From assembly GCF_017894365.1 (NCBI RefSeq), contig NZ_CP059467.1, forward strand, positions 3,100,001 to 3,164,000: a stretch of DNA of 64,000 nucleotides, written 5' to 3'. The stretch is from Aromatoleum bremense. Lineage in GTDB: Bacteria > Pseudomonadota > Gammaproteobacteria > Burkholderiales > Rhodocyclaceae. This document shows, piece by piece, positions 7,520-43,922 of the stretch. A program made the translations under genes and the position numbers. The notes beneath the pieces were generated by a model. That model was not told the DNA's origin and did no database searches. It saw only the letters and a list, made by a program, of their open reading frames with translations. Numbering within the stretch: the stretch's first letter is position 1; each line of letters begins with the position of its first letter.

Positions 7520-8307
7520 TGCCGGTCCTCGTCTTCGATATCGAGACCATCCCGGACGTCGAAGGCATCCGCGTGCTCAACGATCTGCCCGACGACCTCG
7601 ACGATTACGAAGTCGCCGAGTTCGCTTTCCAGCAGCGGCGGGCGGCCAACGGCAGCGACTTCCTGCAGCATCACCTGCAGCGCGTCGTGACGATTTCGTG
7701 CGTGCTGCGAGACACCTCCCAGTTCCGGGTGTTCTCGCTGTCCGCACCGGACTGCACGGAAGGCGAGATCATCCAGCGCTTCTACGACGGCATCGAACGC
7801 TTCACGCCGCAGATCGTGTCGTGGAACGGCGGCGGTTTCGACCTGCCAGTGCTGCATTACCGCGGTCTGAAACACGGCGTGTCGGCGCCGCGGTACTGGG
7901 ACCAGGGCGAAGGGGATTACCAGGATTCGCGCGATTTCAAGTGGAACAACTACATCGGCCGCTATCACAGCCGGCACCTCGACCTGATGGATCTGCTCGC
8001 GCTGTACCAGCCGCGCGCGAACGCACCGCTCGACGAGATGGCGAAGCTGATGGGGTTTCCCGGCAAGCTCGGCATGGACGGTTCCGCGGTGTGGTCCGCG
8101 TGGCAGGACGGGCGCGCCGCGGAAATCCGCGATTACTGCGAAACCGATGTCGTTAACACTTACTTGGTGTATCTGGGTTTTCAGCGCATGCGCGGTCAGC
8201 TCGATGCGGCGTCGCACGCCGCCGAACTCGCAGTCGTGCGCGAAGCGCTTGCGCGCATCGACGCGCCGCACTGGAAGCAGTTCCTTGCCGCCTGGCCCGA
8301 AGTCTGA
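7519..8307 (+). CDS. Predicted 3'-5' exonuclease, PolB exonuclease-like
   Basis: 262 residues. DnaQ/PolB exonuclease motifs are intact: Exo I FDIETIP (Asp7, Glu9), Exo II SWNGGGFDLPVLHY, and Exo III YCETDVVNTYLVY. There is no polymerase domain, so it fits the stand-alone PolB-exonuclease family (DNA_pol_B_exo2). The cellular role is not established from sequence; DNA or RNA 3' trimming is likely. The start at 7519 shares a base with the ydbL stop (TGATG), so it is translationally coupled to the envelope trio although functionally unrelated. Confidence 0.85.
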   Translation: MPVLVFDIETIPDVEGIRVLNDLPDDLDDYEVAEFAFQQRRAANGSDFLQHHLQRVVTISCVLRDTSQFRVFSLSAPDCTEGEIIQRFYDGIERFTPQIVSWNGGGFDLPVLHYRGLKHGVSAPRYWDQGEGDYQDSRDFKWNNYIGRYHSRHLDLMDLLALYQPRANAPLDEMAKLMGFPGKLGMDGSAVWSAWQDGRAAEIRDYCETDVVNTYLVYLGFQRMRGQLDAASHAAELAVVREALARIDAPHWKQFLAAWPEV

Positions 8308-8326
8308 ACATCAAGGAGATACGCTA

Positions 8327-8569
8327 ATGTCGGTCATCGGGACCATCATCATCGGCTTCATCGTCGGACTCCTTGCACGCCTGCTGCATCCTGGCAAGGA
8401 TGGCCTCGGGATCATCATGACGACGCTGCTTGGCGTCGCGGGGGCGATGCTTGCGACGTACGGCGGGCAATTCTTCGGCCTGTACCGGCCGGGGGAGCCC
8501 GCCGGCTTCATCGGCGCGGTCGTCGGCGCAATCATCATTCTGTTCATCGTGAGGCGCCTGCGCAAATGA
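8327..8569 (+). CDS. GlsB/YeaQ/YmgE family membrane protein
   Basis: An 80-residue very hydrophobic protein with three predicted membrane segments and the family patterns IIGFIVGLLARLLHPGKDG, GVAGAMLATYGGQFFGLY and GFIGAVVGAIIILFIVRRL. The family is also annotated as transglycosylase-associated or stress-response membrane proteins, but no biochemical role is proven. ATG 8327 has AAGGAGAT at good spacing. It lies 19 bases after the exonuclease gene and converges on nirS1. Confidence 0.85.
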   Translation: MSVIGTIIIGFIVGLLARLLHPGKDGLGIIMTTLLGVAGAMLATYGGQFFGLYRPGEPAGFIGAVVGAIIILFIVRRLRK

Positions 8570-8585
8570 TCGGCGCGGAGGGCTG

Positions 8586-8618
8586 AAAAAACGGCCAGCG
8601 TGAAGCTGGCCGTCTGTG
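8586..8618 (-). terminator. Terminator between the GlsB-like gene and nirS1
   Basis: A perfect 9-bp stem (8591-8599 with 8605-8613) has a GTGAA loop. On the minus strand the stem is followed by a T run (complement of the A run ending at 8590), so it best terminates nirS1. On the plus strand the tail CTGTGTTT is weaker. It probably serves both convergent genes. Confidence 0.8.
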
Positions 8619-8651
8619 TTTCACGGTCGGCGGCACCCGCCGCCGCGAAAC

Positions 8652-10397
<1,746 letters not shown>

Positions 10398-39618: not shown

Positions 39619-39777
39619 GGATTTCAAGGCCTTCTGCCGGTGGACGGAGGGGCCGGCGGAGTTTGCGCAGGGTATGGCCGGGCATGACCACCGCGGCGAA
39701 GGTCGGGTGGGTGCTTTCGCCGTTTTTGTGTGTCCGGACATGCCATGCTTCGCCCGACCACGCTACAGCAACCCGCG

Positions 39778-39815
39778 TTCGGCGAAAAATGGTGAGCACA
39801 ACATTTTTCGCGGAA
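39778..39815. repeat. Near-perfect palindrome at the left edge of the mobile element
   Basis: TTCGGCGAAAAATG (39778-39791) is the inverse of CATTTTTCGCGGAA (39802-39815) with one mismatch in 14, around a 10-base centre. The right arm overlaps the first bases of the left terminal repeat. The left arm includes CGTTCGGCGAA (39776-39786), repeated directly at the right end (43258-43268). The interval 39619-39777 shows no gene. Confidence 0.85.
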
Positions 39816-39840
39816 TGTGGACGTCTCTGATATGTGCAGT
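39807..39840 (+). repeat. Left terminal inverted repeat of the RIT element
   Basis: It starts TTCGCGGAATGTGGAC and ends GATATGTGCAGT (39829-39840). Against the complement of the right repeat it differs at six of 34 positions. Read on the plus strand its first eight codons are F-A-E-C-G-R-L-stop, echoing the RadC C-terminus. Confidence 0.85.
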
Positions 39841-39949
39841 GCGGGAGTCCTCGCGGCTCCCGCCGCCGCGCCGGCGTCGGCGAACTGCGCATAAGTCCAC
39901 AGCGTGCGCGTACCGTCCGTTGTCCATCCACTGCACGAGGAGGGACATC

Positions 39950-41182
39950 ATGGCTACCGATCTTCCCAGTAATACGCGCGCGCTGTTGGCGCGATCGGCC
40001 TTCGCGCCGGAGTTGAAGGAGTTTGCGGTGTGGCTCGGCGGCGAGCGCTACACGCCGTTCGTCACCCATCTGCACCTGCTGCGGCTGGAGCAGGTCTTGC
40101 CGCGACTTGGAAACCCGACTTGCAGTGAGGGAGACATGCACACGGCTTTCGTGGCGGTCGGCCGAGGGGTGCCGAGCCGTTTCCATCGATTCCATGCCAC
40201 CGAACGTGCCTATCGCCGGTTCCTGCTCGCGCGCGGCCGGTTGGTCAAGGACGAGAACGAAGGCCACCACGCCAGCCTGTGCATCGCCTACGAGCGGCAC
40301 CTGCGGGACCTGCGCGGGCTGTCTGTGTCATCTTGCCAGCATCATGCGATGACTGTCGCCGATTTCCTGGCGCGCGGCCTCGAGGCTGGCCAGGAGTTGC
40401 GCGCGCTCACGCTCGAGGACATTGAACGCTACGTCGCGCTGCGCAGCCGCGAGGTGTCGCGCCACTCGCTGCAGCACGTGGTCGCGTATCTGAGGAGCTT
40501 CCTGCGCTACTGTCACGACCAGGGCGAGATCGGACGGGTGCTCGATGCCATCGAGACGCCCCGAACTTACCGCGGCGAGTTGCCACCCCAGGCGCTCGAC
40601 TGGTCGACGGTCCAGGCGTTGATCCGATCGGTCGATCTTCACAGCAAGGCGGGTCGGCGCGATCACTGCATCCTGCACTTGATGGCCCACTACGGTCTGC
40701 GACCATCCGAAGTCGTAACGCTTCGCGTGGACTCGATCGACTGGGATGCGGCCGTGCTGCACGTCGTGCAGTGCAAGACCCGGTCGGACCTGCTGCTGCC
40801 GCTGGCGCCCCAGACCGTGCGGATCCTGCACGGCTATCTGGCGCATGAACGCCGTGCACAAGGCACGGATTACCCCGAACTGTTCCTGCGTGCCCGCTGT
40901 CCGAGCGGACCGCTGCAACGCTATGCGGTCGGCGACATCTTCAAGAAGCGCGTTCGGCAGGCCAACCTGGAACTGCCGGGCCACAATGTCTATCGTCTGC
41001 GACACACGTTCGCGATGCGGCTGCTCACGCGGGGCGTGGGCGTCAAGGCCATCGGTGATCTCCTCGGCCACCACAGCCTGGAGAGCACCTGTGCCTACCT
41101 GCGGCTGGACATCGACATGCTGCGCGGCGTCGCCCTCGAGGTTCCCGAGGCAGGTCTTCGCCAGGGAGGCCACCATGCATGA
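39950..41182 (+). CDS. Tyrosine recombinase, first of RIT trio
   Basis: 410 residues. The start ATG 39950 follows GAGGAGGG; much longer upstream frame is open but lies outside the element. A core-binding domain occupies the first half (FLARGLEAGQELRALTLEDI, HVVAYLRSFLRYCHDQGEIG). The catalytic domain has Arg in HYGLRPSEVVTLR, the RLRH motif (YRLRHTFAMRLL), then GHHSLESTCAYLR with the likely nucleophile Tyr. It overlaps the second recombinase gene by 8 bases. With its partners it should catalyse integration and excision; which site each binds is unknown. Confidence 0.9.
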   Translation: MATDLPSNTRALLARSAFAPELKEFAVWLGGERYTPFVTHLHLLRLEQVLPRLGNPTCSEGDMHTAFVAVGRGVPSRFHRFHATERAYRRFLLARGRLVKDENEGHHASLCIAYERHLRDLRGLSVSSCQHHAMTVADFLARGLEAGQELRALTLEDIERYVALRSREVSRHSLQHVVAYLRSFLRYCHDQGEIGRVLDAIETPRTYRGELPPQALDWSTVQALIRSVDLHSKAGRRDHCILHLMAHYGLRPSEVVTLRVDSIDWDAAVLHVVQCKTRSDLLLPLAPQTVRILHGYLAHERRAQGTDYPELFLRARCPSGPLQRYAVGDIFKKRVRQANLELPGHNVYRLRHTFAMRLLTRGVGVKAIGDLLGHHSLESTCAYLRLDIDMLRGVALEVPEAGLRQGGHHA

Positions 41183-42146
41183 TGCCCTTTGCCTGGACGC
41201 CTGGGACGCCGCCGTCGCAGCCTACCTGAGCAGTCGCCACGCCATCGGCCGCGCCTACCGCAAGGAGGAACTGATCCTGCGCGAGTTGCGCAGCTTCCTC
41301 ATGCGCGCCGGGGCCGCCGATCTCGATCCGGCCCTCTTCGAGCGCTGGCGCGCGCAGTTCCACCACCTCAGTTCGAGCACGCGCGTCGTGCGTGAGCACA
41401 CCGTGTACAAGTTATGCCGCTACCGCCGGCGCAGCGATCCCGGCTGCTTCCTGCCGGATCGCGAGTCGCTGGCGCGCCAGAAGCCGCACGCGTTGCCGAC
41501 GATCATCGAACCCGAGCAGGTGGCGCAACTGCTCGCCTACGTGTCGCAGCTACCCTCGGGGAGTCGATCTCCCGTGCGGGCGCATGCCATGCGCCTGGCA
41601 GTCGTGCTGCTGTACACGGCTGGGCTTCGACGCGGCGAACTCGTTCGCCTGACGCTGGGCGACGTTGATGTGGACGCCGGTGTGCTGCGGATCCGGGAGT
41701 CGAAATTTCACAAATCGCGCTGGGTTCCCCTGTCGGTCAGCGCGCAGGCCGAGTTACGGCGTTATCTTACGGCGCGGCAACAGGCCCGTCTCGACGAGCA
41801 TCCAGCGGCGCCGCTATTGTGCACCCGGGGATCGCGCGCCTACACCGGCGAGGGCTTGTACAGCAGCCTCAAGCACCAGCTGCGCTGTGCGGGCATTCAC
41901 GACAGCGCCAGCCGCTGTCCGCGTGTGCAGGACTTCCGGCACAGCTTCGCGGCGTCGGCGTTGCTGCGCTGGTACAACGCCGACGCCGACGTACAGTCCA
42001 ACCTGCCCAAGCTCGCGCTCTACATGGGCCATGTGTCGATCGTCTCGACCGCCTACTATCTGCGCTGGATGCCGGCGGTCGTGTCGCAGGCGTCGGATCG
42101 ATTCGCGCGCTCCTGCGCGGGCGTGATCGACGGAGATGCACCATGA
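41175..42146 (+). CDS. Tyrosine recombinase, second of RIT trio
   Basis: 323 residues. The N-terminal SAM-like core-binding region is about 10-110. The catalytic residues appear in LYTAGLRRGELVRLTLGDVD (Arg), SKFHKSRWVPL (Lys), DFRHSFAASALLRWY (Arg-His) and LYMGHVSIVSTAYYLR (His, Tyr). ATG 41175 follows GGGAGG and lies inside the end of the first recombinase gene. The stop overlaps the third gene by four bases. Confidence 0.9.
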   Translation: MHDALCLDAWDAAVAAYLSSRHAIGRAYRKEELILRELRSFLMRAGAADLDPALFERWRAQFHHLSSSTRVVREHTVYKLCRYRRRSDPGCFLPDRESLARQKPHALPTIIEPEQVAQLLAYVSQLPSGSRSPVRAHAMRLAVVLLYTAGLRRGELVRLTLGDVDVDAGVLRIRESKFHKSRWVPLSVSAQAELRRYLTARQQARLDEHPAAPLLCTRGSRAYTGEGLYSSLKHQLRCAGIHDSASRCPRVQDFRHSFAASALLRWYNADADVQSNLPKLALYMGHVSIVSTAYYLRWMPAVVSQASDRFARSCAGVIDGDAP

Positions 42147-43174
42147 AGCCGTCCACGCCAACCGATCTTGGGCGCGAACTGGTGCGCTTCTTCGAAGAGT
42201 TCCTGCCGGCGCAGCGCGGCTTGAGCCCGAATACCGTGCGTAGCTACCGGGACGCCTTGCTGCTGTTGCTGCAGTTCGCCTCGGCTGACGCCAAGCGAGC
42301 GATCGAGCGCCTGGAGGTATCCGACTTCACCGCCGAGCGGGTGATCAAGTTCCTGAACTTCCTCGAGACGGACCGTGGCAACGGGATCGCCACGCGCAAC
42401 GCCCGCCTTGGAGCCATCCATGTCTTTGCGCGCTTCCTCGCGACGCGCCGGCCGGAGTACCTGGGTTCGCTGCAGCAGGTGATCGGCCTGCCATACAAGC
42501 GCGGCGCGCGGGAGGTGCCAATCGAGTACCTGGAGCGCGCCGAGATCGAGGCGGTGCTGCAGAGCATCGACCGGGACAGCGCTCTGGGCCGGCGCGACTA
42601 CGCCTTGTTCGCCCTGATGTTCAACACCGGCGCGCGTGTGCAGGAGGCATTGGACGTGCGGCGGCGCGACGTGCGCCTGGATGCGCCGCCCCAGGTGCGC
42701 CTGCATGGCAAGGGCAACAAGGTGCGGCTGTGCCCGATCTGGCCGGCGACGGCGAAGCTGCTACGCGCCTTTATCGACGAATTGCCGGCGTCCGACGGTG
42801 ATCCCGCCGAGGCGCTGCTCTTCACCAACGCCCGGGGTCGGCCGCTCACGCGCTTCGGCGTGCGCTATCTGCTGCGCCGGTACGTCGCTGCCGCAGCGCA
42901 GCGCGTGCCAAGCATGCGCGACAAGAGCATCCATCCGCACTCGCTGCGGCACAGCACGGCGGTTGCGCTGCTGAAGTCCGGCGTGGACTTCGCTACGATC
43001 AGCCAGTGGCTGGGACATGCCTGTCTGAACACGACGATGCGTTATGTCCGGGCCGACATCGATCTCAAACGGCAGGCGATCGCTCAGGTGTTCCCGGATG
43101 CGCTCGCGCCGCCGCGAGGCGGACGGTTCCAATTCGACGGCCGCGATCTCGTCGGCTGGCTGCGTCGGATGTGA
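42143..43174 (+). CDS. Tyrosine recombinase, third of RIT trio
   Basis: 343 residues, XerC/D-like. The core-binding domain (LVRFFEEFLPAQRGLSPNTV) precedes the catalytic domain with MFNTGARVQEALDVRRRDV (Arg), HGKGNKVRLCPI (Lys), HPHSLRHSTAVALLKSGVD (His, Arg) and LGHACLNTTMRYVRAD (His, Tyr). It ends with a C-terminal extension of about 35 residues (PPRGGRFQFDGRDLVGWLRR). ATGA overlap with the second recombinase. The stop is 60 bases inside the right terminal repeat. Confidence 0.9.
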   Translation: MKPSTPTDLGRELVRFFEEFLPAQRGLSPNTVRSYRDALLLLLQFASADAKRAIERLEVSDFTAERVIKFLNFLETDRGNGIATRNARLGAIHVFARFLATRRPEYLGSLQQVIGLPYKRGAREVPIEYLERAEIEAVLQSIDRDSALGRRDYALFALMFNTGARVQEALDVRRRDVRLDAPPQVRLHGKGNKVRLCPIWPATAKLLRAFIDELPASDGDPAEALLFTNARGRPLTRFGVRYLLRRYVAAAAQRVPSMRDKSIHPHSLRHSTAVALLKSGVDFATISQWLGHACLNTTMRYVRADIDLKRQAIAQVFPDALAPPRGGRFQFDGRDLVGWLRRM

Positions 43175-43234
43175 CTCGGATATGTGGAGTCCATCTACCC
43201 TCGCGCTTCACCTTCTCCAAGGAGAGTGGGTGCA

Positions 43235-43268
43235 ACTCCACATTTCAAAGAAGTCCACGTTCGGCGAA
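43235..43268 (-). repeat. Right terminal inverted repeat of the RIT element
   Basis: Complement of the left repeat with 28 of 34 identities. On the minus strand it reads TTC GCC GAA CGT GGA CTT CTT TGA, the F-A-E-R-G-L-L-stop that ends radC. Its inner 12 bases (complement GAAATGTGGAGT) recur in the opposite sense at 43179-43190 (GATATGTGGAGT) and at the left end, so three copies of a likely recombinase-binding site are visible. Confidence 0.85.
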
Positions 43269-43922
43269 CGACAAAGGCTGCGCATGGGCGGTGACGATGA
43301 AGTGATCGAGGACACGGATATCGACGAGTTCGAGCGCCTGCTTGAGACTGCGCGTCAGCAGTTCGTCTGCGGGGCTCGGCTCGGTGGCGCCCGAGGGGTG
43401 GTTGTGGGCGAGAATCACCGCGGCCGCGTTGCGCCCGAGCGCGAGCTTGACGACTTCGCGCGGGTAGACGCTGGTTTGCGTCAGCGTGCCGCGGAACAGT
43501 TCGACCGCTTCGATCAGGCGATTGCGCGCATCAAGCAGCAGCACGTGAAACACCTCGTGCGGCAGCGAGCCGATGCGCAGGCGCAGCCAGTTGCGTACGG
43601 CAAGCGGCGACTCGAACACGTCGGCATCGTTCATCTGCTCGGCGAGCGCGCGCCGCGCCAGTTCCATGACCGCCTGCAGTTGGGCATACTTTGCGAGGCC
43701 CATGCCCGGGATCGCGGAAAATTCCGCGGCGGAGGCGGCGCACAGGCGGGTCAGCGAGCCGAACTGTTGCAGCAGGTCGCGCGCGAGATCGACTGCGCTT
43801 TTTCCCCGCATGCCGACGCGCAGGAACAGCGCGAGCAGTTCGGCGTCGGACAGCGCGGACGTGCCGCGGGTGAGGAGTTTTTCGCGCGGGCGCTCGTTTT
43901 CGGGCCAGTCGGTGATTGCCAT
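43245..43922 (-). CDS. radC: RadC family protein (JAMM domain)
   Basis: 225 residues, the usual length: an N-terminal helix-hairpin-helix region ([40 protein letters not shown]) and the C-terminal JAMM-like domain with [19 protein letters not shown] and [16 protein letters not shown]. The biochemical role is uncertain despite the old DNA-repair name. The last eight codons lie within the right terminal repeat of the RIT element, so the present C-terminus is supplied by the element, yet SFAERG matches normal RadC ends. It is divergent from coaBC. Confidence 0.94.

Follow-up and report, generated by a model that had tools for sequence, protein, structure and literature searches.

RIT elements have been described as carrying three overlapping genes, ritA-ritB-ritC, within about 3.5 kb, together with a 28-34 bp inverted repeat and an overlapping palindrome (PMC3414803, PMC2864759, PMC10214605). 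According to PMC10214605, the target specificity of RITs lacks a formal test; a RIT insertion in radC is mentioned as data not shown (PMC3414803), and the published radC cases are described as inactivating (PMC2864759). In gene-end-restoring islands and integrative and conjugative elements, such as tDNA islands (PMC4383910) and trmE-type elements (PMC8409611), a split gene is restored and the displaced fragment lies at the far end. Features of both kinds are present in one element of Aromatoleum bremense, located in a stretch of 64,000 nucleotides (contig NZ_CP059467.1, positions 3,100,001 to 3,164,000), hereafter the window. This element has the gene overlaps, length, repeat and palindrome of a RIT, and it also shows a regenerated gene end and a displaced fragment. 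To our knowledge, gene-end-restoring islands restore from one end and in one fixed orientation, whereas in the elements related to the one in the window either end codes for the tail and both orientations are found. Unlike published RITs, the window element is located at the 3' end of a gene, radC, and presents an in-frame replacement tail at both ends. We consider it likely that it represents a distinct clade of the RIT family, specialised for the radC 3' end and coding for the tail at both termini.

Two further systems share part of this description. Elements of the Tn554 family, e.g., Tn6188, have three recombination genes and a conserved site in radC, yet their tnpABC genes belong to other families and their site is in the middle of the gene (PMC3788773). 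The first-pass annotation had seen in Tn554 a sign of a wider link between multi-recombinase elements and radC; this link is weak, given that the insertion point of Tn554-type elements is between bp 540 and 541 of radC, which is thereby disrupted (PMC3788773). A Tn554-like system is ruled out for the window, where the insertion is at the last codons and the radC open reading frame (ORF) stays open to its stop. SE/GInt elements share several tyrosine recombinases, imperfect terminal repeats and a short core copied between sites, but differ by having four core genes, including Tfp/GinC, which is not seen in the window element (PMC10214605, PMC5385486). Membership in this group is ruled out given the three genes only between the repeats.

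The structure of the window element is presented in Table 1. The element, including the palindrome, spans 39787-43268, with 3,462 bp from repeat end to repeat end. With the start codons of ritA, ritB and ritC chosen by us, the overlaps are 8 bp for RitA/RitB and 4 bp for RitB/RitC. As proposed in the first-pass annotation, these are three overlapping tyrosine recombinases, with PF00589 found in all of them, and each matches its counterpart in the same order in other trios. Tyrosine recombinases have the catalytic motif R..RH..Y; all boxes were matched by pattern in RitA and RitB, while the RH box of RitC was missed by the pattern and is visible by eye as RHSTAV. Pfam assigns one SAM-like domain to RitA; for RITs, a RitA with two CB domains and a RitC with an extra C-terminal helix have been described (PMC8138268). 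Inside both ends (39887-39905 and 43180-43195), more copies of an ATGTG(G)AG-like motif are found, possibly extra recombinase-binding sites.

The annotation's remaining structural claims also hold. The terminal inverted repeats have 34 bp and are identical at 28 of them, as counted on the letters. The right repeat contains the end of radC, which reads ...LSFAERGLL on the minus strand with its stop inside the repeat, and the gene is identified as radC by both Pfam and NCBIfam, its nearest named homologues being from Aromatoleum. On the plus strand, reading inward through the left repeat yields FAECGRL and a stop in the radC register. Two features had escaped the annotation: the original radC tail TTCGCCGAACGCGGGTTGCTGTAG, which also codes for FAERGLL and a stop and lies outside the left repeat, followed by the native downstream sequence, and the imperfect palindrome that separates this tail from the repeat.

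Table 1. Features of the RIT element and of radC, in positions of the window.
Feature	Position	Strand	Remarks
Displaced native radC tail FAERGLL-stop, core included	39763..39786	-	Aligns through to the 4 closest relatives once joined to the radC side
Imperfect palindrome (spacer), displaced-tail side	39787..39806	.	20 bp; 10/12 pairs match with 2 bp more per side
Left terminal repeat	39807..39840	+	Codes for FAECGRL-stop reading inward
RitA tyrosine recombinase, 410 aa	39950..41182	+	PF00589 1.7e-25, PF02899
RitB tyrosine recombinase, 323 aa	41175..42146	+	PF00589 6.9e-17
RitC tyrosine recombinase, 343 aa	42143..43174	+	PF00589 6.5e-28, PF02899
Right terminal repeat	43235..43268	-	Source of the FAERGLL-stop that radC now uses
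radC, full length, last codons from the element's right end	43245..43922	-	Pfam RadC 2.8e-42, NCBIfam PRK00024; ORF open through the arm

The empty site was searched for by joining the window's two flanks at the shared core and aligning them to 16 congeneric genomes. Against the four closest genomes, the joined flanks aligned over 801-809 columns across the junction with 89.7-94.3% identity; against the other twelve, which are more distant, the alignment passed the junction and ended near the radC stop (query position 414-426 of 800). The core and tail matching those of the window are thus present in relatives. All 16 genomes have an uninterrupted radC whose end, translated from the DNA, is FAERGLL; in 14 of them the alignment extended as far as the last residue. 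Given that the joined flanks align across the junction in relatives, the insertion took place within the last codons of an ordinary radC. The genome, a single contig of 4.38 Mb, holds the element once; two extra matches have a length of only 29-31 bp. The empty site, together with the spread over unrelated radC genes described below, is indirect evidence that the element may be mobile. A target site and an empty site are thereby provided for RITs, and RIT recombination becomes testable.

Genome contigs were scanned by exact RitC peptides, which yielded 57 loci (numbered with the prefix L). The related set comprises nine elements: that of the window, L004-L010 and L042, the latter eight having a RitC 73-94% identical to the window's. 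In the RitC tree these nine form one clade with support of 100/97. Eight of the nine have flanks, window included, and all eight adjoin a radC 3' end, in both orientations, which agrees with the expectation of the first-pass annotation that related trios sit at this place. L005 is a contig without flanks, L010 was assigned to radC from its displaced tail alone, and L008 and L095, two contigs from the same assembly, resemble one split element when taken together. Entry of radC is at the RitC end in three elements (the window's, L006 and L042) and at the RitA end in five (L004, L007, L008 with L095, L009 and, by inference, L010). Orientation was switched at least two times inside the clade, as judged by eye on the RitC tree, which has long-branch warnings elsewhere. 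In each of the seven elements in which it is visible (the window's, L004, L006, L007, L095 for L008, L009 and L042), the radC frame continues without interruption across the arm as far as its stop, in line with the earlier claim that radC is left intact in either orientation. At the ORF level, the substituted tail would therefore leave RadC full length. A fold prediction of RadC made to judge the tail had a mean predicted local distance difference test (pLDDT) score of 50.6, too poor for use. Chance or assembly artefact is ruled out by the empty site and by the recurrence of the tail pattern in related elements.

The nine elements provide 15 complete termini, and the tail pattern itself is found in every one of them: [FM]AE[CR]G[LR][LI] followed by a stop, or seven open codons and then a stop, which is the native length. 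The annotation had anticipated tail codons at both termini of related trios. Both TGA and TAA are used as stops; right-type arms often have a perfect RGLL, and left-type arms often CGRL. The same termini did not appear at unrelated sites, since RITs found elsewhere have different, tail-less termini. As a control, 26 termini of 14 other RITs were read in a frame set from the target-side GAY codon, which is uncertain where the target of the element is unknown: a stop occurs at the matching codon in none of the 26, the first stop being at codon index 1 in 13 termini, at index 3 in five, and absent in eight. Variation by codon position in the radC-clade arms is 0.31/0.20/0.77 bits, highest at the third position, versus 0.86/0.74/0.48 bits, without a third-position excess, in the control termini. 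Where two codons differ by one base, the change is synonymous in 142 of 199 pairwise comparisons (71% vs 27% expected); the pairs are non-independent and core codons are included. When free mutation from the consensus was simulated, all 13 distinct arms stayed intact in four of 5,000 runs. The third-position variation, the synonymous differences, the two stops and the simulation speak for selection on the coded tail. In the window, the used and displaced tails have the same amino acid at five of the five final codons, stop counted, with only 8 of 15 bases in common.

As can be read from the sequences, each terminus is a recombinase-type repeat which, followed inward from the target core, gives the last RadC codons and the stop, and the original tail has been pushed outward past the palindromic spacer on the far side. 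In the mechanism we propose, the circular form would have its ends joined in the order arm-core-palindrome-core-arm, which makes the attachment site near-symmetric, its two cores being inverted, and the three recombinases could use either core against the radC core (TTCGCC/GAA). Either arm may then land in frame with radC, so that the host would keep a full-length RadC whichever way the element enters, with the palindrome always toward the displaced-tail side. Restoration from both ends fits such a near-symmetric RIT attachment site. The element would supply the tail codons from about Glu onward. Both junctions are available for six elements. Entry core and displaced core are identical in five of these, and therefore the F/M-A codons at the entry side are probably mostly the host's; entry core and far core are different in all six.

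Part of this arrangement extends to RITs in general, for which forty further RIT regions were considered. Of 44 RITs scored, 35 have a palindrome at one end only (20 left, 15 right), 2 at both ends and 7 at neither; among flank control stretches, 25 of 1,334 have one. Opposite orientation in one target was found in two of six pairs tested; the other four pairs had unrelated flanks. The first of the two, L222/L223, lies in the same target sequence in one genome, with 3,533 of 3,536 bases identical and flanks at 297/300 and 298/300; the second, L208/L209, likewise shares genome and target sequence, with 3,473 of 3,474 bases identical. Judged from these comparisons, RITs in general occur in either orientation and have a palindrome on one side, and the two coding tails are special to the radC clade.

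Pfam was applied to 20 picked flanking fragments from 43 elements. It assigned seven to IS66 transposase, four to IstB, three to AAA_22, and one each to RadC, TssF, reverse transcriptase and a Mu-type transposase C-terminus; two had no match. Most identified RIT targets are transposase or ATPase genes, cut mid-gene. Targets named as genes of other mobile elements (IS66 transposase, IstB, AAA_22) are those of L016, L020, L022, L029, L036, L040 and L041, and further such targets are those of L212, L219, L222, L225, L236, L240 and L243. By eye, many RIT junctions are at or near catalytic motifs of the target, which we take to be Walker B and the DNN of IS66. A tail coded at both termini would explain how such a family, which otherwise cuts into other mobile elements' genes, could occupy a chromosomal gene without harm.

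Several results weigh against this interpretation. The used tail matches the displaced native tail at only two or three of the last five codons, stop included, in four of the six elements with both junctions: agreement is 5/5 in the window and L042, three in L007, and two in L004, L006 and L008. Of the best 120 among 7,999 RadC homologues, 119 have R at position -4 and 115 have L at -2; with the exception of one frameshift-like tail, none has C at the former or R at the latter position. The tail in use is, as translated, always of native length and ending type and not always a faithful copy, and the left-type CGRL is, on the same reading, an imperfect copy of the RadC tail. The third-position bias has P = 0.034 over eight codons and P = 0.23 for codons 4-8, in which the host-derived core is left out, and a column shuffle was powerless, since 5,000 of 5,000 shuffles passed, and is hence uninformative. 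In addition, the recombinase-binding repeat common to all these RITs covers the conserved YGT-GGA codons, and thus part of the coding match can be a DNA constraint. As for the palindrome, L007, L042 and L008 (7-8 of 12 pairs) escaped the strict test, and a first scoring that was stricter still, too strict for imperfect palindromes, gave exactly one side in 26 of 44 RITs. Finally, the sample is just nine elements, of which one is split across two contigs, one is inferred and one is flankless.

Some of these results favour an alternative that treats the coding match as a by-product of the way DNA is recognised: the arms and the bacterial attachment site (attB) would be bound by the same proteins, and the stop would reflect shared ancestry and not selection on RadC. 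Codons 4-5 lie on a repeat motif common to other RITs, the bias beyond the core is not significant, and imperfect tails are in use. However, codons 6-8, which are placed between the repeat motifs and change freely in RITs outside the clade, are L/R-L/I-stop in 15 of 15 termini here, and this ending is kept through different codons and two different stops. The window tail, identical in amino acids but in only 8/15 bases, points in the same direction. We therefore regard the by-product explanation as rather unlikely.

A different origin for the two orientations is in-place inversion, in which the recombinases would flip the element after insertion, acting on the entry core and on the far core inverted to it, and radC would thereby switch tails. 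The two cores are indeed inverted relative to each other, a palindrome on the displaced side in both orientations is predicted by inversion too, and L222/L223 and L208/L209 are near-identical elements in opposite orientation in the same target. Yet the cores differ in sequence in 6/6 elements, an obstacle to exchange should homology be required; not one locus was found in both orientations, and the CGRL ending is absent among the best RadC homologues mentioned above. Inversion thus seems improbable to us as the source of the two orientations. An extension of it, in which the element would be a reversible two-tailed cassette whose in-place inversion alternates the RadC C-terminus between the RGLL and CGRL types, with the host gene surviving each turn, is decidedly doubtful. 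If true, tail coding at both termini would free both integration and inversion from orientation, which would be a new strategy.

The last alternative concerns the effect on the host gene. L207 and L210, which we take to be the Bordetella petrii and Cupriavidus metallidurans RIT elements, split radC near codon 172, presumably in its HNH/JAB region. That the element of the window simply inactivates radC, as is stated for the RITs of C. metallidurans CMGI-2 and B. petrii GI3 (PMC2864759) and as these two split genes illustrate, is very unlikely, since L207 and L210 are of another lineage (RitC 37-40% identical) at another site, and the full-length radC ORF in 7/7 visible cases contradicts it for the radC clade, unless the substituted tail destroys RadC. 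A RIT clade that codes for the RadC tail at both termini thus qualifies the printed statement that RITs inactivate radC. The gene is hit by RITs at two places, the 3' end and near codon 172, and Tn554 elements likewise use a mid-gene site.

With regard to novelty, no description of two-ended gene restoration was found in the literature searched; the two main RIT papers, Van Houdt 2009 and Ricker 2013, may contain parts of it.

Searches for more members extended over several sets. Among 369 genomes of the class, at E <= 1e-100, only the window's own element was matched; among 395 genomes of the family there were four matches, its own included, the other three being 55-61% identical. In 268, 299, 299 and 60 genomes around three relatives, with the set of 268 scanned again at a looser limit, many RITs were found, none above 65% identity beyond the elements already identified. 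The best match was 64.7% in 263 plasmid records and 42.4% at most in 6 phage records; E. coli genomes gave no match, and IMG/VR none either, whether searched with the protein or with the arm pattern. Applied to 245 loci, the arm pattern picked out 19, all copies of the known elements from which it had been derived. L049 was rejected as a radC insertion: radC is 1.1 kb from the element, but the junction is not radC.

Two observations on individual genomes remain. Cupriavidus necator UYPR2.512 holds at least eleven near-identical RIT copies across chromosome and plasmids, some of them broken (L022, L023, L025, L028, L030, L031, L033-L035, L047 and L050). In Achromobacter ruhlandii, the contig of L004 presents a second, distant RitC-like gene (37%) at 8199-9125, about 1 kb past the right end of the element.

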